Source: an uncultured Lachnospiraceae bacterium
GTDB lineage: Bacteria > Bacillota > Clostridia > Lachnospirales > Lachnospiraceae
Reading direction: 5' to 3'
DNA length: 64,000 nt
NCBI GenBank assembly: GCA_902774125.1
Contig: CACYHD010000005.1
Coordinates: forward strand, 1-64,000
The notes below the pieces were generated by a model. That model was not told where the DNA came from, did not search any database, and saw nothing but the letters and a program-made list of their open reading frames with translations. The translations under genes were made by a program, and so were the position numbers. Below are positions 1,594 to 62,475 of the stretch, piece by piece; position 1 is the first letter of the stretch, and every line of letters starts with the position of its first letter.

Positions 1594-1687
1594 CTCTTTT
1601 TCCTCCATGTTTATGATTAAATTGATTTATTAGTATGGAATAACTAACTTGATTTTTCATCTAATAGATTTCCATTAATTACTATAA

Positions 1688-1945
1688 TTATTCGCTGATT
1701 GCTTCCTCTAGTCCTTTGGCTAGCTGGTCTGGACAAGATGTTCCTCTGCCCTGGCAATCAATATTTTTCATTCGCTTGATAGCTTCATGCACGTCCATTC
1801 CCTCAACAAGTGCAGCAACACCCTGAGTATTTCCGTGACATCCACCTTCGAACTTAACATTTGTTACTTTGTCATCAACTATATCGAATCTCACTGCTCT
1901 TGAGCAAGTTCCAACATTAGCATGTCTGATTCCTTCTTTTGTCAT
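1688..1945 (-). CDS. TSCPD domain protein (TIGR03905-like)
   Basis: This 85-residue protein carries the TSCPD signature (GRGTSCPDQLAKGL) near the C terminus and a GGCHGNTQG segment with conserved cysteines at about residues 14, 36 and 67, suggesting a metal- or thiol-binding fold. TSCPD domains occur alone and at the end of some ribonucleotide reductases; the biochemical role of the stand-alone form is not known to me. It lies 12 bp downstream of the exporter ATPase gene on the same strand, so it may share its transcript. The start has a GAGG ribosome binding site. Confidence 0.8.
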   Translation of the reverse strand: MTKEGIRHANVGTCSRAVRFDIVDDKVTNVKFEGGCHGNTQGVAALVEGMDVHEAIKRMKNIDCQGRGTSCPDQLAKGLEEAISE

Positions 1946-1957
1946 CTCTATACCTCA

Positions 1958-2701
1958 CTATTCATTTAACATTGCGTCGTATACTTCTGCCACTTCGCCG
2001 ATATCACCCTGAGCGATAATCTCACCGTGCTCTAGAAGAATCGCTTTGTTACACAATCTCTTAACCTGTTCCAAACTATGTGAGACAAAAAGAACAGTAA
2101 CGCCGTGGTCGAACATTCCCTTCATCTTCTTCTCACACTTCTTTCTGAACTTGGCATCACCAACTGACAACACCTCATCAAGAATTAGAATTTCTGGCTC
2201 TACTACAGTTGCAATAGAAAAACCAAGTCTGGCCTTCATACCCGAAGAGTAATTCTTAATAGGAACATCAATAAAATCTCCCAACTCAGAAAACTCAAGA
2301 ATTTCTTCGTACTTAGACTCAAGAAACTCTCTAGAAAAACCAAGCACTGAACCGTAAAGATAGATGTTTTCTCTACCTGTGTAGTTAGGATCAAAACCAG
2401 CTCCCAGCTCGATCATAGGTGCCATGTGCCCGTTACGAGTAACAGATCCTGTTGTAGGCTTGTACACGCCCGCAATAATTTTGAGCAATGTAGACTTACC
2501 CGCGCCGTTGAGACCGAGTATGCCCAATCTGTCACCTTTTTCTAGTTCAAAATTAATATTTTTAAGAGCCCAAAACTCATTGAATCTGATTTTTTGACCC
2601 TTGATTTTTTTGATTAATAACTCCTTAAGGTTATCAACATTCTCTTTGCTCAAGTTAAAAAGAATACTAACATCCTTAACTTTTAAAACTTTGTTAGCCA
2701 T
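1958..2701 (-). CDS. ABC transporter ATP-binding protein, polysaccharide/teichoic acid export (TagH-like)
   Basis: The 247-residue ATPase has Walker A GLNGAGKST, signature NYSSGMKARLGFS, Walker B ILILDEVLSVGD and the switch His in LFVSHS. The N-terminal sequence before the P-loop, with a long insertion ending in FWALKNINFELEKG, is typical of the Wzt/TagH/RfbE export subfamily. It has only the ATPase domain and lacks the C-terminal carbohydrate-binding extension of some Wzt proteins. With the membrane gene 8 bp upstream it should form a two-component exporter that flips the lipid-linked wall polymer. Confidence 0.9.
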   Translation of the reverse strand: MANKVLKVKDVSILFNLSKENVDNLKELLIKKIKGQKIRFNEFWALKNINFELEKGDRLGILGLNGAGKSTLLKIIAGVYKPTTGSVTRNGHMAPMIELGAGFDPNYTGRENIYLYGSVLGFSREFLESKYEEILEFSELGDFIDVPIKNYSSGMKARLGFSIATVVEPEILILDEVLSVGDAKFRKKCEKKMKGMFDHGVTVLFVSHSLEQVKRLCNKAILLEHGEIIAQGDIGEVAEVYDAMLNE

Positions 2702-2709
2702 CTTTCCTC

Positions 2710-3510
2710 CTAGATATGCAATATGAACTTATCCTGGTTCTTTTTGAATATAAAAATACCAAAAGCTAATGCAACAACACTAAATACCATAGAATATAGC
2801 ATCATAGTTAAGTTAGAAATGCCGTAGCTGTAATGAGTAAAGATTGACCCCTGCTCCATTAGTGCACATCTGAAGTTACTAATAATGCAATACAATGGGT
2901 TAATCATAATTAAGCTTCTTGCCTGACCGATACCATCTATATAATAGAAGATAGCCGAACAGTACATAATAAGCATTAGCATTACATCCCACAAATATTC
3001 TAGGTCTCTAAAGAATACACAAACTGTTGATAGTATCAATCCCGCTGCTATGCTCATCACGAACAAAATAATCAACGGAATAAACACTTCAATAATATGC
3101 CATGTAAAGTGTACTCCCAAAACAATTGAAGTCAAAGCCAATATGATTAGCGATAGCAAAAACAAAATGTAGTTGTACAAAACACTAGACAATGGATACA
3201 AGTACTTAGGTACGTATACCTTTTTGATCATCGCCTGGTTAGATCGAATAGATCTCATCGCTATCTTTGTTGAACTTGAGAAGCAGCTGTATATAAGTCT
3301 ACCACTCAAGATATAAACAGGATAAAGGGCTCCGCCTCTTCCCAACAAACTACCGAACACGAACCACAATACTAATGTAGTTAAAAGTGGTTCTAGTAAT
3401 GTCCATACAAGACCCAAGTAAGATCTTCTGTATTTTAGTTTGATACCTTTTATAACAAGCTCCCTTAAGAGATATCTATATCTCAAGAAGCCGTCCCAAT
3501 ATTTTTTCAT
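2710..3510 (-). CDS. ABC-2 type polysaccharide/teichoic acid export permease (TagG-like)
   Basis: The 266-residue product has about six hydrophobic segments and the ABC-2 export fold. It opens with a cytoplasmic stretch ending in KLKYRRSYLGLVWTLLEPLL, a characteristic N-terminal signature of the Wzm/TagG permeases. It precedes the TagH-like ATPase on the same transcript and is the membrane half of the exporter. A good ribosome binding site (GGAGG) lies 4 nt before ATG 3510. Confidence 0.9.
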   Translation of the reverse strand: MKKYWDGFLRYRYLLRELVIKGIKLKYRRSYLGLVWTLLEPLLTTLVLWFVFGSLLGRGGALYPVYILSGRLIYSCFSSSTKIAMRSIRSNQAMIKKVYVPKYLYPLSSVLYNYILFLLSLIILALTSIVLGVHFTWHIIEVFIPLIILFVMSIAAGLILSTVCVFFRDLEYLWDVMLMLIMYCSAIFYYIDGIGQARSLIMINPLYCIISNFRCALMEQGSIFTHYSYGISNLTMMLYSMVFSVVALAFGIFIFKKNQDKFILHI

Positions 3511-3565
3511 AACACCTCCGCGCTATACACATAGGTCTTAGACCAGGCTATCATCTTTTCTGAAG

Positions 3566-3604
3566 ACGCCTGTCACGTAACTATATTTAACGCCTGTCAC
3601 GTAA
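3566..3604. repeat. two 15-bp direct repeats upstream of the exporter genes
   Basis: ACGCCTGTCACGTAA occurs at 3566-3580 and again, identical, at 3590-3604, 24 bp apart start to start. The pair lies in the 162-bp gap between the GT2-TagF gene and the exporter operon. Repeated sites with this spacing suit a regulator binding two positions on nearly the same face of the helix; that is inference. Confidence 0.5.
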
Positions 3605-3672
3605 TTGTCCTGCGCAAAAACTATTATTACGCCATTAAAATTATATATTATTAGTTTACAATGTCAATAGAT

Positions 3673-5880
3673 TTATAGCGCATCCGCAAATACTTCCTCT
3701 ACAACTCTTTGAGCCGCATGACCGTCATCTATGCAACAATATGTGTCGTAGAACTGCTGGTAACGCTCTTTGTAATCTGCCTCAATCTGATCAATGTTTT
3801 TAATAGCTTCAACTACGTCATCGTTAGTTAGAAGTATAGGACCAGGAAGATCCTTTTCCATATCAAGATAGAAGCCTCTAAGCACATCGCGATATTTTTC
3901 TATATCGTATGCGTAATAAAGAATTGGTCTCTCCAGATTAGCATAGTCAAAAAATACTGATGAGTAATCTGTAATCAAAATATCCGAAACCAAATACAAA
4001 TCTGTAATATCATCATAAGTACAACCGTTAATTGTAAAGTCGCCGTACTTATCTAGATCCATCTTTTCTACAACGAAGTAGTGAAGTCTCAACAACACAA
4101 CGTACTCGTCGCCAAACTCTTTTTTCAATCTATCTAGATCCAGCGCCAAGTCAAAGCCATACTGACCAGCCTCGTAGAAGTTGTCATCTCTCCAAGTTGG
4201 AGCATAAAGTATAACCTTCTTGTCTAGAGGAATGCCAAGCTTCTTCTTAATCGCGATAGCCTCCTCTTCCTTGTTAGGACTATATAGTGGATCGTTAGCA
4301 GGATAACCTGCCTCCAATATTTTTTCTTTTTCGAATCTAAAACAGCTCTGGAACTTTTCAGTAGAAAACGGATTGTCAGAAAGTAGATAATCCCATTCTC
4401 TTGTTTGCTTGAAAACAATGTTTTTGTATTCCGGATTAGCTGAATGCACATCATCCATGTCAAAAACAAGTCTCTTAAGCGGAGTTCCGTGCCATGTTGC
4501 TAGCATGATTGTCTCTTCACGTCTAGGAACACTAAGTGGCTGTCTCATATTGTTAACCCAATATTTACTTCTATTCATATAGTAGTAATATCTTATTCCG
4601 AAACGCTTGCAAGTTACATGCTTGCCTGGAATCTTAACGCCTCGTCTATCAACAACCCATATACATTTGAACTTGTTAGGATAATTCTCCTGCAAGTACT
4701 TGTAAATATACTTAGGCTGACCGGAGCAGTTTCTTCCCATAAAACTTTCAAAAACAATCCAGTCATTTCTTGTCTTGAATCTGGAGAAAACATAAATAGT
4801 AATAGTCTTGTTGAAGACTCTTCTATTAGTAAGCATCTTCTTCCATTTTCTTCTGAATAAAACTTTAATACCCTTCTTATATGTATAGTCGATATCACCA
4901 AGGCCGCAAGCCTTAATCATATTTTTTTCAAGACGGTTAAAGTTCTTGTGTGTGATAGCCTTCATATTTATTTCCTTGGCTCTCACACTTATTCCCTGAT
5001 AATATTCGTTAGGCCATACGTCATTCCACTCTTCCTTAGGATTTCTAATCTTGCGTAGGAATGGCTTAACAATGAACTTACCGAGAATTACATTGAGATG
5101 ATCCTTAAGCTCCTTGTCGCCCTTGGCCGCAATCATTGCGTTGTCATAAGCGACAAAATAGTTAGGCATTGTTATCTCTTTGGCTATCTGGTTGAGAGAA
5201 GGATTTTCGTTTTTGTCGTTGTGACTTCTCTTAACATAAATCGCCTCTGCGCATGACTTGGCCGCTCTGATCTTAGTCAAAAGTCCGACCAAAACTTTGG
5301 CATCTGCAAAATAAAACTGCTCGTTGTTAAAGCTAATGTTATGCTCGATGAACAGAGACTTGCGATAAATTGCTCCTAGTACAGATAGCTTTTCCAATCT
5401 CTTGTATTTGAAAAACATATACTCTCGCACATCGTCAAAGTTGTACTGAGAAATAGTCTCTTCGATTTCGTCTTCGTTTTCTTCCTGCTCCTGCTGCGCC
5501 TTGTTGAACGCACTCTTCTGGAACCATGTATGTCTGAACTGAGAATAAACCATATCTGTTTTCTCATCAAACTTCTCCATCATTGAAGCAAGATAATCAG
5601 GTGTTAGGTAGTCATCGTTATCCAAAAACATAACATACTCGCCGCCCGCCTTGCTAAGTCCAAGGTTTCTTGCTGCACTTACACCTTCTGCATCTTCAAG
5701 CTGATAAAGCTTAAGATTAATTGAGTCCTTCACACTGTTGATCAGATCAGTTAGATCATCCTCTGTGTGGTCTAGAACCAATATTGTTTCTATATCATCA
5801 TAGTTTTGCTCTGCGATACTCTCAAGACAGTCTTTAATATAGTGAGTGTTTCTCTTGTGAGTCACAATAATACTTATCAT
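3673..5880 (-). CDS. GT2 glycosyltransferase fused to CDP-glycerol glycerophosphotransferase (TagF-like)
   Basis: This 735-residue protein joins two enzymes. Residues 1 to about 240 form a GT-A glycosyltransferase (start MISIIVTHKRN, then DNDDYLTPDYL with the DxD-type acidic motif). Residues about 360-735 form a TagB/TagF-like glycerophosphotransferase with YKYLQENYP, WHGTPLKR, YAPTWRD and ITDYSSVFFDY. It should add a sugar and glycerol phosphate units to a lipid-linked polymer on the inner face of the membrane. Such fusions are known in Gram-positive teichoic acid and capsule loci. It lies between tagD and the exporter genes. Confidence 0.88.
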   Translation of the reverse strand: MISIIVTHKRNTHYIKDCLESIAEQNYDDIETILVLDHTEDDLTDLINSVKDSINLKLYQLEDAEGVSAARNLGLSKAGGEYVMFLDNDDYLTPDYLASMMEKFDEKTDMVYSQFRHTWFQKSAFNKAQQEQEENEDEIEETISQYNFDDVREYMFFKYKRLEKLSVLGAIYRKSLFIEHNISFNNEQFYFADAKVLVGLLTKIRAAKSCAEAIYVKRSHNDKNENPSLNQIAKEITMPNYFVAYDNAMIAAKGDKELKDHLNVILGKFIVKPFLRKIRNPKEEWNDVWPNEYYQGISVRAKEINMKAITHKNFNRLEKNMIKACGLGDIDYTYKKGIKVLFRRKWKKMLTNRRVFNKTITIYVFSRFKTRNDWIVFESFMGRNCSGQPKYIYKYLQENYPNKFKCIWVVDRRGVKIPGKHVTCKRFGIRYYYYMNRSKYWVNNMRQPLSVPRREETIMLATWHGTPLKRLVFDMDDVHSANPEYKNIVFKQTREWDYLLSDNPFSTEKFQSCFRFEKEKILEAGYPANDPLYSPNKEEEAIAIKKKLGIPLDKKVILYAPTWRDDNFYEAGQYGFDLALDLDRLKKEFGDEYVVLLRLHYFVVEKMDLDKYGDFTINGCTYDDITDLYLVSDILITDYSSVFFDYANLERPILYYAYDIEKYRDVLRGFYLDMEKDLPGPILLTNDDVVEAIKNIDQIEADYKERYQQFYDTYCCIDDGHAAQRVVEEVFADAL

Positions 5881-49847: not shown

Positions 49848-52800
49848 AAAGGAATAAATTTTTTAAAGGAATAATATCGATATTACTTTCAGTAACTATG
49901 CTTGCAACTATAATGCCTTTTTATGTGAATAATAACAATGAAGTAAAAGCTGCCAGTTTTTCAATTACAACACCGGCTGCTAATTCACTAAGACCAGCTG
50001 GACATATTGATATTGCATGGAGCCAAGCTTCAGGTTCTGTTAAGAATTATGAAGTGTATATCGATAATACTAAGGTAGCAACAGTTAATGGTACATCATA
50101 TGATTATTATTCTACAGCAGTAGTTTCACATAAGCTTTATGTTAAAGCTGTTAAGAATGATAACAGTACAGAAAGCAGTGATACTATCAATTTTTCAGTA
50201 AGTAAAAAAGGTCTTGGACTAGCATCAGACATGGGACGTAGCATTAGCCTTAAAGATATGGGCGTTGCATGGTACTATAACTGGGGCGAGAATCCATCAG
50301 GCGGAGACCAGTACAAGGGTGTTGATTATGTACCTATGATATGGAAAGAGACTAATGCCAACAACTTCATAAAGAGAGTCAACAATGCAAAAAATAAAGG
50401 ATATAAAGAAATCCTTACATTTAACGAGCCAGACCTAGGTGATCAGTGTAACATGTCAGTTGATGACGTTTACAATGTTTGGCAGGGAATTGATAACTTC
50501 AATGGAAACATTAGTATTTCATCACCTGTCACAGCGGTTTGGCCTCAGGCTTCAGGTGGATGGTTCCAGCCATTTATGAGTAAGCTTACAGGTAATGATT
50601 ACAAGCCTGACTTTATTAGTATTCACTGCTACCCAGACGACTATGGCGGCGCAGGTATGGCTAGATGGTTCGTTGAGGAAGTAGTAGACTGGACATGGAA
50701 TCAATATCATATTCCTATTTGGATTACAGAGTTTTCAACAAAAGGTAGCGTAACAGCTACAGGTGGAAATGGTACTAAGGAATTCTGGGAGACAGTAATG
50801 CCTCTACTAGACGAGAGAGAATACGTTGAGCGTTATGCAGGTTTCTGCTTTAATGCTGCTTATATGCCTAACTGCGGATTGTGGAATTATAACACAGGCG
50901 AATTGACACCAGGTGGTGAGATGTACAGAGATTTGGGTAACCCAGAAGGTTATGATCCAGGAAACCTTCCACTGCCAGATTATAAAACAACAATAGGACA
51001 GCGTAATACTCTATTGGATGATAATATAACTATTAATGGAGTTTCATATAGAGATTATATAGCTCAGGGTGGTGTAAGTGCTACAGCTTCATCGGTTAAA
51101 TATAGCAACGTTGCAGGAAATGTAATTGACTCTGATATCGGTAGTAGATGGGAATCTAATTGGAGTGATCCACAGAATCTAACTATCGATTTGGTTTCTT
51201 CTAAGAAAATAAAAGAAGTTGATATCGTTTGGGAAGATACGTCAGCTGCTAAGTACGAGATTCAAGTTTCTAATGATGGCAATAACTTCACTACTGTAGC
51301 CACAGTAGAAAGCAATAATGGTGGTAGATGGGATAAGATAATGGTATAGCTAGAACTACTCAGTATGGATATTCTATAAAGGATATGGCTATATATGGTC
51401 CTGACAATTCTCAGATGGAGACTATTGAATTATCAAATTTAAATGGAGGAAGACTTACAACATATATTGGTACTGATTGGACTACAGCGAGCGGCAACAT
51501 AATGGCTTCAACCAACGGTGACATTACAGCTTATATTACTAACGGTAGTAACGAGTCCAGATATAATTCTATTCAGGCTCAGTACAAAGAAATCAAACTA
51601 GAAGTAGGCACTAAGTACAAGTTCTCGGCAACTCTTAATTCAACAGTTAAGAAAAAAGTTACTATAAAACTAACAGATGCTAATGGCAATCAGGTTCAGG
51701 GAGGTACCACAACTAAAACTATTGAGGCAGGTGACACAATAGCAGTCGAGTTTATATTTACAGCTGAGACAGATGAACTTAATGTTGCATATCTATTTGG
51801 TAACCATAGTGGAGAAAAATATACTGATTATACTTTCAAAATTACAGATAACAAACTGACTGATAACAAAAATTATGATTTTATAAACGGTCATTTGAAT
51901 ATTTATTCTAATTCGTTTTTTGAAGAAAAAGAAATGAAAAATATAAACGTAGAAGATGTAAAACAAGTTAGAATTTTCAACCCGGTAACTTATATAGGTG
52001 AATCTGCATTTAGTGGATGTAGTAGTTTAACAGAAGTAACAATCCCAGATGGTGTTACAAGTATAGGGAATAATGCATTTGATGGATGCAGTAGTTTGAC
52101 AGAAGTAACGATTCCCGATAGCGTTACAAGTATAGGTGAATATGCATTTAGTGGATGTAGTAGTTTAACAGAAGTAACAATCCCAGATAGCGTTGCAAGT
52201 ATAGGTGGTGGTATGTTTAGAGGATGTAGCAGTTTAACAGAAGTAACAATCCCAAATAGTGTCATACTTATAAGGGAATATGCATTTAGTGGATGTAGTA
52301 GTTTAACAGAAGTAACAATCCCCGATAGCGTTACAGGTATATGGAGGAATGCATTTGATGGATGCAGTAGTTTAACAGAAGTAACAATCCCAGATAGCGT
52401 TACATGTATAGGTGAATATGCATTTAGTGGATGCAGTAGTTTAACAGAAGTAACGATCCCAGAAAGCATTAAATCTTTAGGTTACTTTATTAGTGTAGAC
52501 GGATCTATAGGAGAGCATGCATTTGATGGATGCAGTAGTTTAAAAGAAGTAACAATCCCCGATAGCGTTACATATATAGGTGGAGCTGTTTTTACTGGAT
52601 GTAGCAGTTTAGCAGAAGTAATAATTCCCGATAGCGTTACATATATAGATGGAGCTGCATTTAGAGGATGTAGCAGTTTAACAGAAGTAACGATCCCAGA
52701 TAGCGTTACATGTATAGGTAAATATGCATTTAGTGGATGCAGTAGTTTAACAGAAGTAACGATCCCCAATAGCGTCACAAGTATATGGAATAATGCATTT

Positions 52801-53598
52801 GATGGATGCAGTAGTTTGACAGAAGTAACGATCCCTGATAGTGTCACAAGTATAGGGAAGTCTGCATTTTGGGAATGTGATTCTTTAAAGAAGCTTGTGT
52901 TACCGAAAAAACTTACAGGAGAAATCAACATTGGTTTAGAAACGTGTAAATCGTTAAGTACAGTAATTATTAAAGCTATGAGTAATACAGTAACACTTGC
53001 GAATGATTGTTTTACTAATGGAGAGTTGAAGGATATATACATCATTAATGCTGCAATGGATATTTCTAATACTGGCATAAGTAAAGATGTTAAAATTCAT
53101 TGCTTTGAATACTCCAATGCTTATTGGCATGCTAAAAGGAATGGAAATATAATTGTATTGTTGGATGAGAATGGCAATGATATAGAGACCACTGTAATGG
53201 AATCTACCGAAATCGTTACAACAACTAGAAATGAAGAAGTTGGTTCAACAGAATTCAATTCTGATGATGTAACTACTCAAACATTTAGTCATACAGATGT
53301 CCAAGTACAGAAACCAAATAAACTTTCAATTAAAAAAGTAATATCAAAAAAGAAGTCGCTTAAGATTAATTGGAAAAGACAAAAGAATATTGATGGATAT
53401 AATTTACAATGTGCTTTGAGTAAAAAATTTAAAAAAGCAAAAAATACTATTATACGTGATGCTTCAAAAATTAGTATTGTGATAAAAAAACTCAAAAGCA
53501 AAAAGAAATATTATGTTCGTATACGAAGTTATAAAAAGATAAATGGAAAAAATATATATTCTGTTTGGTCTAAAATAATAGCAAAGAAAACAAAATAA
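49844..53598 (+). pseudogene. frameshifted secreted GH128-like/F5-8C/LRR protein
   Basis: One long gene looks split by a frameshift near 51335-51350. The first part (49844-51349, 501 residues) has a signal peptide (about 1-36, cleaved near VKAA), an Fn3-like segment, a glycosyl hydrolase core (Asl1/GH128-like; acid/base in LTFNEPDLG, nucleophile in IWITEFSTKG) and the start of an F5/8 type C domain, then TAG. The second part (frame open from about 51343; ATG 51385, 737 residues) resumes that domain with GIARTTQYGYSIKDMAIYG, then a CBM-like region, 13 LRR_5 repeats (51985-52911), a Thr-rich linker and a Fn3-like C terminus. The indel may also have removed a few residues. A sequencing error could mimic this. 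Confidence 0.7.
51985..52911 (+). repeat. 13 BspA-type leucine-rich repeats, 69-bp DNA units
   Basis: Twelve units are 23 residues and one (the eighth) is 33, with the core GCSSLTEVTIPDSV. The DNA units are highly alike, so copy number may vary by slippage or recombination. This region is AT-rich compared with the glycosidase part. Confidence 0.9.
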
Positions 53599-54789: not shown

Positions 54790-57621
54790 ATGTCTAATTT
54801 GGCGGAAAAAATTATAGATAGTGCGAGAACAAGTTTGATTAATTCTAGTTACGAGTCAGAGGAAGCGTTAAGACCTAGACTTCTTTATAACAATCAAAAC
54901 AAAGGAAACACAATTCTTGCAAACATTGAGGATGAATTAAAAAAATGTGATTCATTCTGGTTTTCGGTTGCATTCATAACAAGTAGTGGACTTATATTAA
55001 TTAAAGATTTGCTAAAAGAGTTAGAGATAAGAGGTGTTAAAGGAAAAATTCTTACAACTGATTATCTCACTTTTAGTGAGCCAAGAGCCTTAAAAGAATT
55101 AATGGCTTTTAAAAATGTTGAAGTAAAAGTTTACACGGAAGAATCATTTCATACCAAAGGATATATGTTCACAAAAGGTAATGTGAAAACTTTTATTGTA
55201 GGAAGTTCTAATTTTACCCAAACAGCTTTGAAGCAAAATAAAGAGTGGAATCTAAAGGTAACTTCTCTCGAAGAAGGGGAGTTGGTTGAAGAGACTAATA
55301 GTGAGTTTTATAGTATGTGGCAAAACGCAACAGAACTTACTACAGATTGGCTCGATGAGTATGAAGTAAGATATAAGGAAGTCAAAAAAACCCGTCCTAA
55401 AACAAAAGTTGCTCGCATAAAAACATACACATTAAAACCAAATAAAATGCAGGTTGAAGCTACAGCTGCTTTGGAAAACTTAAGAAAGTGTAATAAAAAT
55501 AAAGCGCTACTCGTTTCAGCAACAGGGGAAAGTTATCTGGATGTACTAGGTAATGATATTAATGTTGGAATGATTGGCGGCGGAAAGCATGAGATGTACG
55601 CTGATTATATATTCTCAACAGTTCAGACTATTTCTAAAAAAGAAAATTTGGAGAAGTTTGCGCCGGATCATTTTGATTACATTGTAGTTGATGAGACGCA
55701 CAAAGCTGGTGCTGATTCATATCAAAAAGTAATAGATTATTTTCATCCGAAGTTCATGCTAGGAATGACAGCATCACCAGAGCGAACAGACGGATACGAT
55801 ATTTATAAGTTGTTTGATAACAACATAGCTTATGAGATTAGATTGAAAAAAGCAATGGAGGAAGATTTGCTTTGTCCATTCCATTACTTTGGAATATCTG
55901 ATTTTGAGGTAGATGGACAGACTGTGGATGATAACACTGATTTTAATTACTTGGTTTGTAGCGATAGAGTTGATCATATTATTAGACAGGCGGAGTTTTA
56001 TGGTTACAGTGGAGACAGAGTAAAAGGCTTGGTTTTTTGTAGTAGAAAAGAAGAGGCCAAAGAATTATCTAACGAGTTTAATCAAAGAGGGTATGACACT
56101 ATCGCTTTGTCAGGAGAGGATTCGCAAGAAAAAAGAGAGGATGCAATCCGTAGATTAGAGCAAAACGAAATCGAGAATAAATTAGATTATATTTTTACCG
56201 TTGATATTTTTAACGAAGGCGTGGACATACCTCAAGTTAATCAAGTTATAATGATTAGAAAAACAGAAAGTCCAATTGTTTTTGTGCAGCAGTTGGGACG
56301 AGGCCTAAGAAAATCTGACGGAAAAGAGTATGTTGTAGTTCTGGACTTTATAGGAAACTATCAGAATAACTTTATGATTCCTATCGCATTATCAGGAGAC
56401 AGAACTTACAATAAAGATACAATTAGAAAATATGTTAGGGAAGGAAATAGAGTTATTCCAGGATGCTCTAGCATTCACTTTGATGAGATTGCCAAAAAAA
56501 GAATTTTTGCATCAATCGACAGAATGTCTACGACAAAAAGAATGCTAACTGACAAATATATGCAGCTCAAGTTTAAGCTTGGACGTATTCCAACAGTATT
56601 GGATTTTTATGATTATGGTGAGATTGATCCGATGTTGTTTATTAATTATGCAAAAACATATGATAGTTTTGTAAGAATGGTAGACAAAGAATACAGCGTG
56701 TCTTTTAATGAAAAAGAAGAGGCGATTCTTGAGTTTATCTCTTCTACTATTTTGAGTGGAAAAAGACCGCATGAACTATTGATGTTAAAGATGCTAGCTG
56801 AGAACAAAGAAGTATATAAAGATAGTTTCAAAAAAGAATTAGAAATGCTAGGCGAAAAATATCGTGTGGCAGATTATGATTCTGCAGTAAGAGTTTTGAG
56901 CAAAGAGTTTATGAATAATAAGTCAGAAAAGAAAAAGTTTTCTGATATAGAAATATTTGACGAAAAACTTTTGGCCATAGGTCAATTAAAAAGGGCAGTT
57001 TCTTATCTAGATACTTTCAAAAAGAAAAGTTTTGCTGCAGAGATAGAAAATCTTATTACATATGGCTTGAAAAGATACAAAGATATGTATAGTGAGCATG
57101 ACGAAGATAATCTGGTAATGTATGAGAAGTATTCTAGAAAGGATGTGTGTCGCATTCTTAACTGGGAGAAGGATGACAGCGCTACAATTTTTGGATATCG
57201 AATTAAGCATGGCACTTGTCCTATTTTTGTAACGTACAAAAAGAAGGATGACATTTCTAGCAGTACTAAGTATGAGGATCAGTTCGTTAACCCGGGATTA
57301 TTTAGTTGGATGACTAGAAGTAATGTGAAGATAGACAGCGCGGAGAGTCAAAAGCTGATTAACTACTTGGAGAATGGACTAAAGATTTATCTCTTTGTAA
57401 AGAAGAGCGACGGTGAAGGTTCTGACTTTTATTATATGGGACGAGTGACTCCTGAGAAGTGGGAGCAGACAACAATCAAAAATGATAAAGGTCAGGAACT
57501 ACCGATTATGAATTTTCTTATGCGATTGGAGAATAGTGTGAGGGAAGATTTGTATGATTATGTTAAATCTGAGCTTACAGATGTGGAATATGACAGCGTT
57601 GTCAAGAAAAAAGCAGAATGA
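54790..57621 (+). CDS. PLD-like/DEAD-box helicase/DUF3427 protein lacking its Walker A motif
   Basis: The 943-residue protein has a PLD-like nuclease domain (1-200; HTKGYMF and GSSNFTQTALKQNKEWN), a superfamily II helicase (215-560; DETHKAGADS, GMTASPERTD, FNEGVDIPQ and QLGRGLR) and a DUF3427 region to the end. Between LLVSATG and ESYLDVLG the P-loop (normally TGKT) and motif Ia are absent, about 33 residues. The gene is otherwise open, so the deletion is in frame. The ATPase is probably dead. A decayed piece of the missing segment is at 59215-59309. These proteins are linked to DNA repair or defence. Confidence 0.85.
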   Translation: MSNLAEKIIDSARTSLINSSYESEEALRPRLLYNNQNKGNTILANIEDELKKCDSFWFSVAFITSSGLILIKDLLKELEIRGVKGKILTTDYLTFSEPRALKELMAFKNVEVKVYTEESFHTKGYMFTKGNVKTFIVGSSNFTQTALKQNKEWNLKVTSLEEGELVEETNSEFYSMWQNATELTTDWLDEYEVRYKEVKKTRPKTKVARIKTYTLKPNKMQVEATAALENLRKCNKNKALLVSATGESYLDVLGNDINVGMIGGGKHEMYADYIFSTVQTISKKENLEKFAPDHFDYIVVDETHKAGADSYQKVIDYFHPKFMLGMTASPERTDGYDIYKLFDNNIAYEIRLKKAMEEDLLCPFHYFGISDFEVDGQTVDDNTDFNYLVCSDRVDHIIRQAEFYGYSGDRVKGLVFCSRKEEAKELSNEFNQRGYDTIALSGEDSQEKREDAIRRLEQNEIENKLDYIFTVDIFNEGVDIPQVNQVIMIRKTESPIVFVQQLGRGLRKSDGKEYVVVLDFIGNYQNNFMIPIALSGDRTYNKDTIRKYVREGNRVIPGCSSIHFDEIAKKRIFASIDRMSTTKRMLTDKYMQLKFKLGRIPTVLDFYDYGEIDPMLFINYAKTYDSFVRMVDKEYSVSFNEKEEAILEFISSTILSGKRPHELLMLKMLAENKEVYKDSFKKELEMLGEKYRVADYDSAVRVLSKEFMNNKSEKKKFSDIEIFDEKLLAIGQLKRAVSYLDTFKKKSFAAEIENLITYGLKRYKDMYSEHDEDNLVMYEKYSRKDVCRILNWEKDDSATIFGYRIKHGTCPIFVTYKKKDDISSSTKYEDQFVNPGLFSWMTRSNVKIDSAESQKLINYLENGLKIYLFVKKSDGEGSDFYYMGRVTPEKWEQTTIKNDKGQELPIMNFLMRLENSVREDLYDYVKSELTDVEYDSVVKKKAE

Positions 57622-57623
57622 TA

Positions 57624-57659
57624 AATAAAAAGTGTTACACCTTTGATACGAGTGGGTAT
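57624..57659 (+). repeat. left direct repeat flanking the RhuM-Doc pair
   Basis: AATAAAAAGTGTTACACC followed by a related TTTGATACGAGTGGGTAT. It matches 59177-59213 at about 31 of 36 positions; all five substitutions are transitions and there is one extra A. It encodes KKCYTFDTSGY in one frame. Confidence 0.75.
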
Positions 57660-57722
57660 ACAAAATCCTATTTAATTATCAACATGTATGGTGGGTGTAT
57701 TAATATTAATAAAGGAGATGCT

Positions 57723-58739
57723 ATGAAAAAAGATTTGACAAATTCAAGATTAGATAGACAGAATATTTTGAACAATAATATAGCCATTAACGAGATAAAA
57801 AATAAATCTGGTATAGAAGGTATAGTCTGGAATGAAAAAATATATATTACGCGTGATATGGCAGCAGATTTTTTCGAAGTAGATATTAGAACAATTAGTC
57901 GTTATTTAGAGCAAAATAATGAAGAATTGTCAGAAAATGGTTATGAAGTAATACGTGGAAAAAAATTAAAAGATTTTAGAGAGGCTGTCGAAAATTCTGG
58001 TAAGGACATAAATGTCCCTACCAAAACTACAGTACTTGGTATCTTTGATTTTAGAGCTTTTTTAGATTTGGCTATGTTAATAGCTGAAAGTGAAAAGGCG
58101 AGAGCTTTGCGTCAGATGATGCTTGATATAGTTATAGATCTGATTAATTCAAAAACCGGTGGTGGAACAAAATATATTAATCAAAGAGATAAAGACTTTG
58201 TTTTTGCATCGTTACAGGAGGATAATTACCGAAGAAATTTTACAGATTCACTTAAAGAGTATGTCGAAGAAGATAAATTCAAATATGCCCATTTTACTGA
58301 TTTGATTTATGTGAGTATTTTTAAAGAAAAGGCCAAGGAATATAAGAAGATATTAGACCTTAAAGAAAAGGACAAGGTAAGGGATACTTTTTACAGTGAA
58401 ATATTAGATATTATTGCAGCTTATGAAAGTGGAATGGCAGATGCCATAAAAAAGGAGTCAACAGAGAAAGGAAGAGTGCTGACAATAAAAGAAACTGAAA
58501 AGCTTTTTAGCGAATTTGAGGAGATGGCATTGTGGAAACCGTTGATACATAGAGGAAGGATAAAAATGGCAAGTCGAGATATGGCATTGCGAGATGCTTT
58601 CCACTATCAACTATCTGAATATATTCAACCACTAGATGAAGAAGAATATAAGAAATTCTTAGGCACAACAGGAGATGAATTAGAACAATTAATGAAGGAA
58701 AACAGTGATGTTTTAAAAAGGTTAAAGGAGCGTGATTAG
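57723..58739 (+). CDS. RhuM/KilA-N-like DNA-binding protein paired with Doc
   Basis: The 338-residue protein has an N-terminal DNA-binding-like part (EGIVWNEKIYITRDMAADFF, VDIRTISRYLEQN helix-turn-helix) and a GIFDFRAFLDLAMLIAESEK block similar to BRO/RhuM proteins. C-terminal helices lead into LEQLMKENSDVLKRL. Genes of this type often sit before Fic/Doc toxins and act as antitoxin or regulator. I start at ATG 57723 because AAAGGAG is 7 nt upstream; the frame is open back to 57618. It overlaps nothing but ends 1 bp before the Doc start. Confidence 0.75.
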   Translation: MKKDLTNSRLDRQNILNNNIAINEIKNKSGIEGIVWNEKIYITRDMAADFFEVDIRTISRYLEQNNEELSENGYEVIRGKKLKDFREAVENSGKDINVPTKTTVLGIFDFRAFLDLAMLIAESEKARALRQMMLDIVIDLINSKTGGGTKYINQRDKDFVFASLQEDNYRRNFTDSLKEYVEEDKFKYAHFTDLIYVSIFKEKAKEYKKILDLKEKDKVRDTFYSEILDIIAAYESGMADAIKKESTEKGRVLTIKETEKLFSEFEEMALWKPLIHRGRIKMASRDMALRDAFHYQLSEYIQPLDEEEYKKFLGTTGDELEQLMKENSDVLKRLKERD

Positions 58740-58740
58740 G

Positions 58741-59181
58741 ATGGAAGAAGTAAAGTATATCACGCTTGAACAGGCAATTAGTATACATCAAAAAACTATA
58801 AAATATAGTGGAGGTGGAGCTTTAGGATATTTGGATTTAGGTAAATTAGAGAGCGTTTTAACTCACATTCAAAATGATGATTATTATCCAACATTTGTTG
58901 AGAAGTTAACACATTTATTCTTTTGCACATGTGAATTTCATTGTTTTGAAGATGGAAACAAAAGATTGGCTATATCTTTGTCTGCATACTTTTTGTTGTT
59001 AAATGGATATATGGCTGTAGCAAAAAGCTTTTTTGAAGTAACTGAAAATATAAGCTATTATGTTGCGGCAGGAAAAATCGATAAAGAATTATTACTAAGA
59101 ATAATGGAAGCGATAGTGGTAGGAACATATGACTTTGATGAAGATTTGAAGTTAGAAATATATAACGCAATAAATCAATAA
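58741..59181 (+). CDS. Doc-type Fic family toxin
   Basis: The 146-residue protein has the Fic core HCFEDGNKRLAI (HxFxDGNKR) near residue 65, typical of Doc kinases that inactivate EF-Tu or modify other targets. The length (about 150) is near that of Doc. It starts 1 bp after the RhuM-like gene. A ribosome binding site AAAGGAG lies about 10 nt before ATG 58741. The inhibitor is probably the upstream protein. The pair sits between two imperfect direct repeats, suggesting a mobile toxin-antitoxin cassette. Confidence 0.85.
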   Translation: MEEVKYITLEQAISIHQKTIKYSGGGALGYLDLGKLESVLTHIQNDDYYPTFVEKLTHLFFCTCEFHCFEDGNKRLAISLSAYFLLLNGYMAVAKSFFEVTENISYYVAAGKIDKELLLRIMEAIVVGTYDFDEDLKLEIYNAINQ

Positions 59182-59213
59182 AAAAGTGTCACACCCTTGA
59201 CATGAGCGGGTAT
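59177..59213 (+). repeat. right direct repeat flanking the RhuM-Doc pair
   Basis: AATAAAAAAGTGTCACACC then CTTGACATGAGCGGGTAT; the partner of 57624-57659. In one frame it reads KKCHTLDMSGYR and ends at TAA 59217. Confidence 0.75.
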
Positions 59214-59214
59214 C

Positions 59215-59342
59215 GGTAATACATATCTCTCCGCCTTCGACGTGCGCAACTTTGCATCGAAAAAATGTTATTTTTGGCACACAGAGAGCTGATTCTAAAT
59301 CAAGCAAGTGAAAGTTATCTGGATGTATTAGGTAACAATATT
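59215..59342 (+). pseudogene. decayed helicase fragment (P-loop to motif Ia)
   Basis: In frame it reads GNTYLSAFDVRNFASKK and, after a one-base frameshift near 59265, LFLAHRELILNQASESYLD and VLGNNI. This is the segment missing from the helicase at 54790, where the frame jumps from SATG to ESYLDVLG. The last 33 bp (59310-59342) match 55528-55560 with a few changes, so it comes from a diverged copy. The P-loop Lys is Asn and the frame is broken: a relic, not a gene. Confidence 0.75.
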
Positions 59343-59347
59343 TATAA

Positions 59348-60471: not shown

Positions 60472-60753
60472 ATGATGAGAAAATATATTTGGGAGACTCC
60501 AGAAGAGATTAACTTAATAGTAGCGAGCAATGTTAAAAATATAAGAAAACGCAAAGGCATCTCACAACAAAAATTAAGCGAGCTGACAGGGGTTAGTTAT
60601 GGCTCAATCAAGCGTTTCGAAATGACCGGTAATATTAGTCTTTTGTCATTAACCAAAATTGCTATTGAACTTGATGCAGTTAACGATATTAAATCATTGT
60701 TCACTTCTGTTGTTTATCAATCAATCGAGGAGGTAATTAATGAGCAGAAATAA
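60472..60753 (+). CDS. XRE-family HTH regulator (HipB-like)
   Basis: The 93-residue protein has a Cro/CI helix-turn-helix: NVKNIRKRKGISQQKLSELT and GVSYGSIKRFE. Similar proteins precede hipA toxin genes; here no hipA follows. Instead a 23-bp copy of the kptA gene end lies right after the stop. AGGATTAG precedes the ATG (60472 or 60475). The two 18-bp palindromes upstream are likely its operators. Confidence 0.85.
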   Translation: MMRKYIWETPEEINLIVASNVKNIRKRKGISQQKLSELTGVSYGSIKRFEMTGNISLLSLTKIAIELDAVNDIKSLFTSVVYQSIEEVINEQK

Positions 60754-60810: not shown

Positions 60811-61140
60811 ATGAAAATTGTACCAAGCAACAAAATAGATTATCAGATTTTTATTGGCCTTAATGATTCCCAAATTTATGAAAAAGTGATTAAGGAACAG
60901 GAGATTATAGAAATGATTAACGATTTTTTTACACGTAAAAAAATCGATTTTTCGTTGCTCAAAGCAACTGGAGGGTATCTATACCAAAACGGTGAGTATA
61001 TTATAGAAAATGTATTATGCATTAATATTATAGACAACAAGCAAATAGATATTCTTAAGCTAACCCAGAGTCTCTCTATGTTTATGAATCAGGAGAATGT
61101 TCTGGTTATGAGAAATAATACAATGGTAAAAATGGGCTAG
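60811..61140 (+). CDS. small protein of unknown function, paralog A
   Basis: The 109-residue protein has no signal, membrane segment or domain I know. Pattern: YQIFIGLNDSQIYEK near the start, FSLLKATGGYLYQNG near residue 47 and a C-terminal NVLVMRNNTMVKMG. Its neighbour shares this pattern. It has a weak AGGGAAAG site before ATG 60811. Confidence 0.65.
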   Translation: MKIVPSNKIDYQIFIGLNDSQIYEKVIKEQEIIEMINDFFTRKKIDFSLLKATGGYLYQNGEYIIENVLCINIIDNKQIDILKLTQSLSMFMNQENVLVMRNNTMVKMG

Positions 61141-61147
61141 GTAATAA

Positions 61148-61474
61148 ATGAAGAAAGAATTTAAAAAAGGAATTAAATACGAAATATTTGTAGGCATCAA
61201 GGACCAGGATAGTTACGAAGAACTGTTTAGTGCTGATGATTTTAAAAATATTCTTACGGAGATTTGTTCAGAAAAACAAATCAGTTTTTCTTTGCTGACA
61301 CAGATGGGCGGGTACACACACAACAAAGGTTATACTACAGAGACTAGTATGAGAGTTATAATCATAGGTGTTGATGAGGACGAAATCAAAAAGATTGGCG
61401 ATAGATTAAAAGAAATAATAAACACAGATACTATTCTCATTACTAAAACGGATGTAGAATATTGTTTTATATAG
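61148..61474 (+). CDS. small protein of unknown function, paralog B
   Basis: The 108-residue protein aligns with the gene just upstream: YEIFVGIKDQDSYEE, FSLLTQMGGYTHNKG and a C-terminal ILITKTDV stretch. The shared FSLL...GGY core and similar length suggest a tandem duplication. Function unknown. It is 7 bp downstream of paralog A. Confidence 0.65.
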   Translation: MKKEFKKGIKYEIFVGIKDQDSYEELFSADDFKNILTEICSEKQISFSLLTQMGGYTHNKGYTTETSMRVIIIGVDEDEIKKIGDRLKEIINTDTILITKTDVEYCFI

Positions 61475-62085: not shown

Positions 62086-62475
62086 ATGAAAACGATTAGA
62101 GTCGTAGCAGCAGTTATTAAAGATAAGAATAAAATTTTTTGTACGCAGAGAGGCTATGGAGAGTTCAAGGGATATTGGGAATTTCCAGGCGGCAAGATTG
62201 AAGAAAATGAGACACCACAGGAAGCTTTGAAAAGAGAAATCAAAGAAGAGTTAACTATAGACATAGAAGTAGGAGATTTGATTGATACTGTAGAGTACGA
62301 CTATCCAGAATTCCATCTTTCGATGGATTGTTTTTATGCCGAGATAATAAACGGTGAGATTGAACTTAAAGAGCATGACAATGCATTATGGTTGGAAAGA
62401 GACAATCTAAAGACAATTGAATGGTTACCGGCAGACGAGGATCTTATTAATAAAGTTGTAGAAAAAAATGGTTAA
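62086..62475 (+). CDS. NUDIX hydrolase, MutT-like (deoxy)nucleoside triphosphatase
   Basis: The 129-residue protein has IRVVAAVIKDKNKIFCTQRG at the start, YWEFPGGKIEENETPQEALK and REIKEEL, the complete Nudix box (GX5EX7REUXEEXGU). It likely hydrolyses damaged or non-canonical nucleoside triphosphates. Enzymes of this group often lie near PLD-DUF3427 helicases, as here 4.5 kb away. It starts 18 bp after kptA. AAAGAGAG precedes the ATG. Confidence 0.92.
   Translation: MKTIRVVAAVIKDKNKIFCTQRGYGEFKGYWEFPGGKIEENETPQEALKREIKEELTIDIEVGDLIDTVEYDYPEFHLSMDCFYAEIINGEIELKEHDNALWLERDNLKTIEWLPADEDLINKVVEKNG

Follow-up and report, generated by a model that had tools for sequence, protein, structure and literature searches.

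The locus

The window analysed here is a stretch of 64,000 nucleotides from an uncultured Lachnospiraceae bacterium (assembly GCA_902774125.1, contig CACYHD010000005.1, positions 1 to 64,000, forward strand). It contains an open reading frame (ORF) for a SauUSI-like helicase, followed by two PDC-M59 genes, by a decayed piece of helicase sequence (the relic) and, further on, by a NUDIX gene (table 1). The ORF is devoid of the codons for its ATP-binding P-loop, and the relic holds them. We conclude that this arrangement is real and largely explained: it consists of fossil junctions of integrating elements together with a probable scar.

What remains of the helicase? Pfam matches PLDc_2, ResIII, Helicase_C and DUF3427 in the ORF, the ResIII match starting only at profile position 93. 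PADLOC calls the protein mREase_IV, and its top sequence match is PDB chain 7clg (E 6e-212), which the PDB lists as ‘putative helicase’ and which we take to be SauUSI. The ORF retains motifs II, III, V and VI as well as a stretch that resembles HKD. The frame is open across 943 codons and runs directly from SATG into ESYLDVLG, the DNA at 55522-55533 being ACA GGG GAA AGT. Alignment to the orthologue of a relative, G008, shows that 33 in-frame codons are absent (residues TGKTYLSAF...KQAE); these include motifs I and Ia. PLDc, helicase and DUF3427 thus occur in the order of a SauUSI-type enzyme, and the Walker A of a P-loop NTPase is missing. Judged by its sequence, the protein is a SauUSI-type member by descent and is not counted as a working enzyme. 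Because motifs I and Ia are absent, ATP-dependent cleavage is not expected of it; both ATPase and restriction activity have presumably been lost.

The relic reads GIGNTYLSAFDVRNFASKK from 59209, shifts frame in a run of A and then continues as LFLAHRELILNQASESYLDVLGN. It holds the segment that is absent from the helicase, with Asn in place of the P-loop Lys, and overlaps the helicase at its end (55528-55560 versus 59310-59342; 30/33 identical). At E 2e-7 this overlap cannot be put down to chance. No second match to the helicase, beyond the relic, was found in the window genome as assembled (92.7% complete, 86 contigs). The original prediction of a helicase without some 33 residues around its P-loop, and of a decayed copy of just that segment downstream, was therefore accurate. 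Both sequences read ESYLDVLGN where four congeners (G004, G007, G008 and G010) read DSFKDVLGN, so relic and helicase look like a single lineage. Nor does the relic lie closer to another helicase family, an outcome that would have told against the prediction: its residues match the window helicase.

A second pair of repeats, which the original prediction does not mention, lies at 57627-57659 and 59181-59213; the copies are 85% identical, and the latter abuts the relic. This 33-bp repeat occurs nowhere else in the window genome, even with up to three mismatches allowed. The two copies contain the sequences designated R1 and R2.

Table 1. Features of the helicase locus, in window coordinates.
Feature	Position	Strand	Evidence
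SauUSI-like PLD-helicase-DUF3427 ORF without motifs I and Ia (proposed attB gene, mutated)	54790..57621	+	Domain, PADLOC and PDB matches; alignment
Probable deletion junction ACAGGGGAA; 33 codons absent between 55527 and 55528	55522..55530	+	Same as left junction in G157 contig C73
R1, apparently older, decayed right-arm copy with P-loop start, 6 bp past helicase stop	57627..57659	+	26/37 consensus positions, maximum 21 in 30 shuffles
Cargo gene 1, PADLOC PDC-M59A (candidate phage defence)	57723..58739	+	E 1e-107
Cargo gene 2, PADLOC PDC-M59B, Fic/Doc family	58741..59181	+	PADLOC and Pfam
R2, element right arm with core GG (59209-59210)	59181..59210	+	34/37 consensus positions
Displaced helicase 3' half, decayed relic, GIGNT for GTGKT, frameshift	59209..59345	+	Sequence reading; 33-bp overlap
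NUDIX gene, usual direct downstream neighbour of helicase, here 4.5 kb off	62086..62475	+	

A right arm common to several genomes

Is R peculiar to the window? A right arm with a common breakpoint at the P-loop core occurs in seven further genomes or records (G004, G017, G031, G157, G189, L046 and L048) and twice in the window; the G189 arm deviates at several positions. Immediately after the core the helicase resumes from its P-loop codons in G004, G017, G031, G157, G189 and at R2 of the window. Only about 13 helicase bases are left after the core in L046 and L048, the second L046 copy (725) having slightly more. The genes that precede the arm differ: PDC-M59 in the window, IetA/IetS in G004, PDC-M09 in G157, an IrrE/ImmA-like protein and others in G017, and HipA with a helix-turn-helix (HTH) partner in L046, the proteins of L048 being the same ones.

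To which helicase does the piece behind R belong? The family search gave 30 loci, the window's among them, and at 21 a NUDIX gene on the same strand lies within 500 bp 3' of the helicase; of the other nine, one has it at 1.1 kb and eight have none within the bases covered. In the window 4.5 kb separate the two genes and in G017 4.1 kb, a space that holds cargo, R and relic. A piece of integrase core (rve_2) closes the G017 relic and stands before the NUDIX gene. Behind R in G004 and G031, helicase sequence passes straight into a NUDIX fragment, as judged by eye against the G008 NUDIX protein. Gene order thus identifies the piece behind R as the 3' half of a resident helicase.

A looser R pattern, run against 397 genomes of the family, returned only the window and G157; G031 and G189 surfaced through their helicase halves. 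A generic pattern for P-loop right arms gave 0/295 in genomes of the order, a sample without G157, G189 and G031, and the window relic was itself unable to match that pattern because its P-loop is mutated. In viral contigs, each of three pattern scans for the arms gave 0 matches. Between 59346 and 62400 of the window the top scores for a further degenerate R were 19/37, under the shuffle maximum of 21.

R2 and the relic can be read firmly as a right junction at the P-loop core, and 57627-59345 holds two right ends, each from an insertion into P-loop codons. A fragment left by an insertion was one of the options originally offered. That option was right and can be made specific: the fragment is a helicase 3' half, displaced next to the right attachment junction of an integrating element. 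R1 is most likely older than R2, as it agrees with the consensus at 26 rather than 34 of 37 positions.

Left junctions and the dyad

If R marks the right end of an insertion, where is the left? In G157, the one genome of its genus, two helicase 5' halves stop at residue 250 and enter a common tail beginning GGAACGTGTTATTATTGTGACAGG, and on contig C17 a third, decayed 5' piece adjoins tail sequence. The window helicase has exactly the junction sequence seen on the left side in G157 contig C73, and the C17 sequence differs from it by one base. A search of seven genomes for the tail located it in G157 only.

When right arm, GG and left arm are joined, they form a dyad centred on GG with 15/26 pairs. 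Shuffled arms reached this at the same centre in 3/20,000 trials and at any centre in 0.45%; a shorter, initial test gave 43/5,000.

The Walker-B site and its recombinases

A related helicase is split in G167 at its Walker-B codons, the halves lying 56 kb apart on one contig with a prophage (terminase, portal and capsid genes) between them. As at the P-loop site, its right arm reads TTGACA, six bases and then the core, here within GATGAG. The arms form a dyad with 18/26 pairs, equalled in 0/20,000 shuffles at the centre and 1/20,000 at any centre. Right junctions at the same Walker-B codons occur in G030, G245 and G118. An insertion site fixed within a gene, at the same P-loop or Walker-B codon, is thus found in several genomes, and the core would measure 2 bp.

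Near its right end the G167 prophage carries three tandem large serine recombinase genes, each encoding Resolvase, Recombinase and zinc-ribbon domains. Genes similar to these stop 151 bp short of the core in G245, where two were seen, and 213 bp short of it in G118, which has two plus part of a third. None was found in the bases available at G030, although the 386-aa gene next to the end is common to G030 and G167. A search of 12 right-junction loci with the G167 triplet matched three, all of the Walker-B type. Between helicase end and cargo, G004 carries a 124-aa piece. It is assigned to no Pfam family, and its match (E 4e-11) is to the C-terminal part of one of the large serine recombinases in G157. 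The PF07508 genes of G157, G004 and G017 (9 matches) sit elsewhere, and no arm was found in the stretches around seven of these and C50.

Elsewhere in G157 (L077, contig C28, 4225-9269), three tandem large serine recombinases are flanked by two sets of Vsr-like genes and of genes that we take to be DNA methyltransferase-like.

The helicase in relatives

How common is a helicase without its P-loop? Of the 397 family genomes, 124 match the intact helicase at E <= 1e-40. The window's alone, of the matches listed, is a near-full-length ORF in which the alignment halts at 250 and restarts at 283; no relative with the same short form, which would have counted against the original prediction, was seen there. 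By motif, the P-loop is intact at 41 of the 54 loci examined, representing 36 distinct DNA contexts; the window's is among the remaining 13. As the window's is the only such ORF listed and 41/54 loci are intact, the short form is not one that relatives share.

Amino-acid identity between the window helicase and that of G008 is 66% over residues 1-250 (162/246), 79% over 290-500 and 89% over 800-965. We considered a recent exchange of the 3' half. The rise in identity comes near residue 360, well past the P-loop codons; at the DNA level identity there is only about 60-78%, and synonymous divergence is saturated or not computable; the gradient is not used as evidence.

Contigs of two relatives stop at one helicase codon (residue 374 of G008) and one stops at the P-loop (L035, G004 C6; L037, G007 C132; L038, G017 C12). 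Such breaks within the helicase gene suggest several alleles in the samples. At another locus (L119, G082 C1, about 1610-4340), some 2.7 kb splits the helicase near residue 195-200, and repeated units of the GTAAAAAA..CTTACC type edge both sides.

Proposed explanation

Right arms with one breakpoint, left junctions at one codon, a dyad centred on the core and recombinase genes at the Walker-B sites are the observations from which we start. We consider it probable that the P-loop codons are the attachment site of a family of integrating elements and that the loss of the P-loop is a scar. The SauUSI-like P-loop codons would serve as attB, with the core GG in ACA-GG-TACCGGTAAAAC. Most likely a large serine recombinase joins the attP of the element to this attB of ATPase codons and so splits the helicase: with the cut at GG, the 5' half would remain by the left arm and the 3' half would be pushed past the right arm R. 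On this view, 59181-59345 of the window is a right junction together with the 3' half that was moved behind it and has decayed, 57627-57659 is an older one that has decayed further, and PDC-M59 is defence cargo beside a right end, like the cargo of relatives. A deletion scar at the attachment site probably accounts for the missing P-loop. The deletion would have begun at a left junction and ended 99 bp into the 3' half, via a shared GAA, so that the frame resumed with motifs I and Ia gone. That a recombinase acted at the P-loop site, that events followed this order and that the deletion is a scar is what we infer.

Several observations weigh against this explanation. The core is GA in G017 and GG in the others. 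No recombinase was found at 8/8 P-loop-type right junctions examined, within 2.3-10.3 kb, and none matching PF07508 anywhere in the window genome; nor was the left tail found in that genome. The arms joined as the P-loop attP come from separate contigs of one metagenome-assembled genome with about 5% contamination. In the window, G004, G017, L046 and L048 the cargo is preceded by a complete helicase 3' end, an arrangement for which one simple insertion cannot account. Lastly, the scar could also result from a plain deletion after a GGG codon, the codon used at this site in 4/36 intact P-loop contexts.

This upstream 3' end leads to the main rival, an exchange of cassettes, which we regard as possible but doubtful. 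Units of [helicase 3' half - defence cargo - R] would enter at the P-loop site or through homology of the 3' half. The resident frame would be kept and a new attachment site provided each time, the old 3' half would be displaced behind R, and repeated rounds would give arrays. The order helicase 3' end, cargo, R does recur in all five of the genomes and records just named, and the window and L046 each have two copies of R, one of them between helicase and cargo. However, left junctions in G157 are not followed by a helicase 3' half, a free unit was not found, and only the window has a complete upstream helicase, the other contigs breaking within the gene. Such an exchange departs from the explanation that we favour in its route, not in the identity of R.

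Might the relic be an insertion remnant and the P-loop loss an unrelated, spontaneous in-frame deletion? We think this unlikely. A GGG codon would by itself be enough to produce the junction sequence, and the window's own left arm is kept for only a few bases. On the other hand, the gap starts at the exact base at which elements insert, and the junction is identical to that of G157 C73.

An assembly artefact, in which the gap or the order of the pieces reflects a chimera of strains or copies, is improbable. The assembly is indeed fragmented, and contigs of several relatives break inside the helicase gene, but helicase and relic differ in sequence, the frame holds for 943 codons, and only a short repeat was found at the ends of the absent segment.

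Least probable, and right in part at most, is a chance-homology recombination of two independent helicase genes with destruction of one, which the original prediction had also offered: two helicase-derived sequences do lie 3.7 kb apart, but ESYLDVLGN fits the window helicase rather than the four congeners compared or another family, and the relic boundary is a junction conserved at the same codon in other genomes. The further idea of a cassette that restores the helicase found no support, given the frameshift, the Asn for Lys and a genome with no match to a PF07508 recombinase.

Neighbouring sequences

No Pfam family was matched by cargo gene 1. An HTH gene at 60472-60753 resembles the one that accompanies HipA in L046, and no HipA gene follows it; HipA is likewise present only as fragments in G004 (L036). 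Two adjacent small ORFs (109 and 108 aa) at 60811-61474 are paralogue-like. Upstream, a 737-aa ORF (51385-53598) with many near-identical repeats of the SVTSIGEYAFSGCSSLTEVTIPD type encodes a repetitive, surface-type protein.

Wider meaning and known systems

What looked like an odd pseudogene becomes a readable record in which the catalytic codons of an anti-phage enzyme were hit repeatedly by mobile elements with similar ends. Attachment sites become predictable from protein motifs, and split type IV restriction genes become marked places at which defence cargo is deposited. A near-full-length SauUSI-like ORF may be without its ATPase, a warning for annotation. Tentatively, we suggest that one family of phages and related elements has fitted its attachment sites to ATPase codons that are invariant in an anti-phage restriction enzyme of type IV; one branch would use Walker A and another Walker B. 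Integration would disarm the nuclease at codons that the host cannot easily change, the element would bring defence cargo, and repeated rounds would leave arrays. Whether integrating into a defence gene is in itself counter-defence becomes directly testable.

How does this compare with known systems? SauUSI is described, in the available part of the source, as a type IV enzyme that cuts DNA containing 5-methylcytosine or 5-hydroxymethylcytosine with ATP or dATP (PMC3874153). Its order of PLDc, ATPase/helicase and DUF3427 recurs in the window ORF, which differs in the absence of motifs I and Ia. Integrative and mobilizable elements with a serine integrase insert in snf2, traG or maff2 of Tn5252-type integrative and conjugative elements (ICEs), according to the portion of PMC5357655 at hand. 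There too a conserved gene of another element is disrupted, a helicase among them, but by a single integrase and in a different target gene. The three recombinases in the accessible text of PMC6814731 are distributed over three elements and form no triplet. One open-access library, weak evidence of absence, yielded no report of serine recombinases in DUF3427/SauUSI genes or of SauUSI-like Walker-A or Walker-B codons as targets.

The kind itself is known: elements are on record that bear triple serine integrases and split restriction genes. Streptococcal ICEs carry serine integrase triplets and insert within hsdM, traG and mutT, with repeats of 2-8 bp and sometimes with genes between triplet and target (PMC4701971, in the part available); for Tn1806-like elements, which also bear triple serine integrases, the targets are snf2, hsdM and a methylase gene (PMC12942858, likewise). 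Like these, G167 has three serine recombinases at one end, a split target gene and very short repeats. Unlike the triplet ICEs, the complete example here (G167) is a prophage, and the triplet was not found at the P-loop site. The target, too, sets the present elements apart from both: it is a SauUSI-like gene, entered at its Walker-A or its Walker-B codons.

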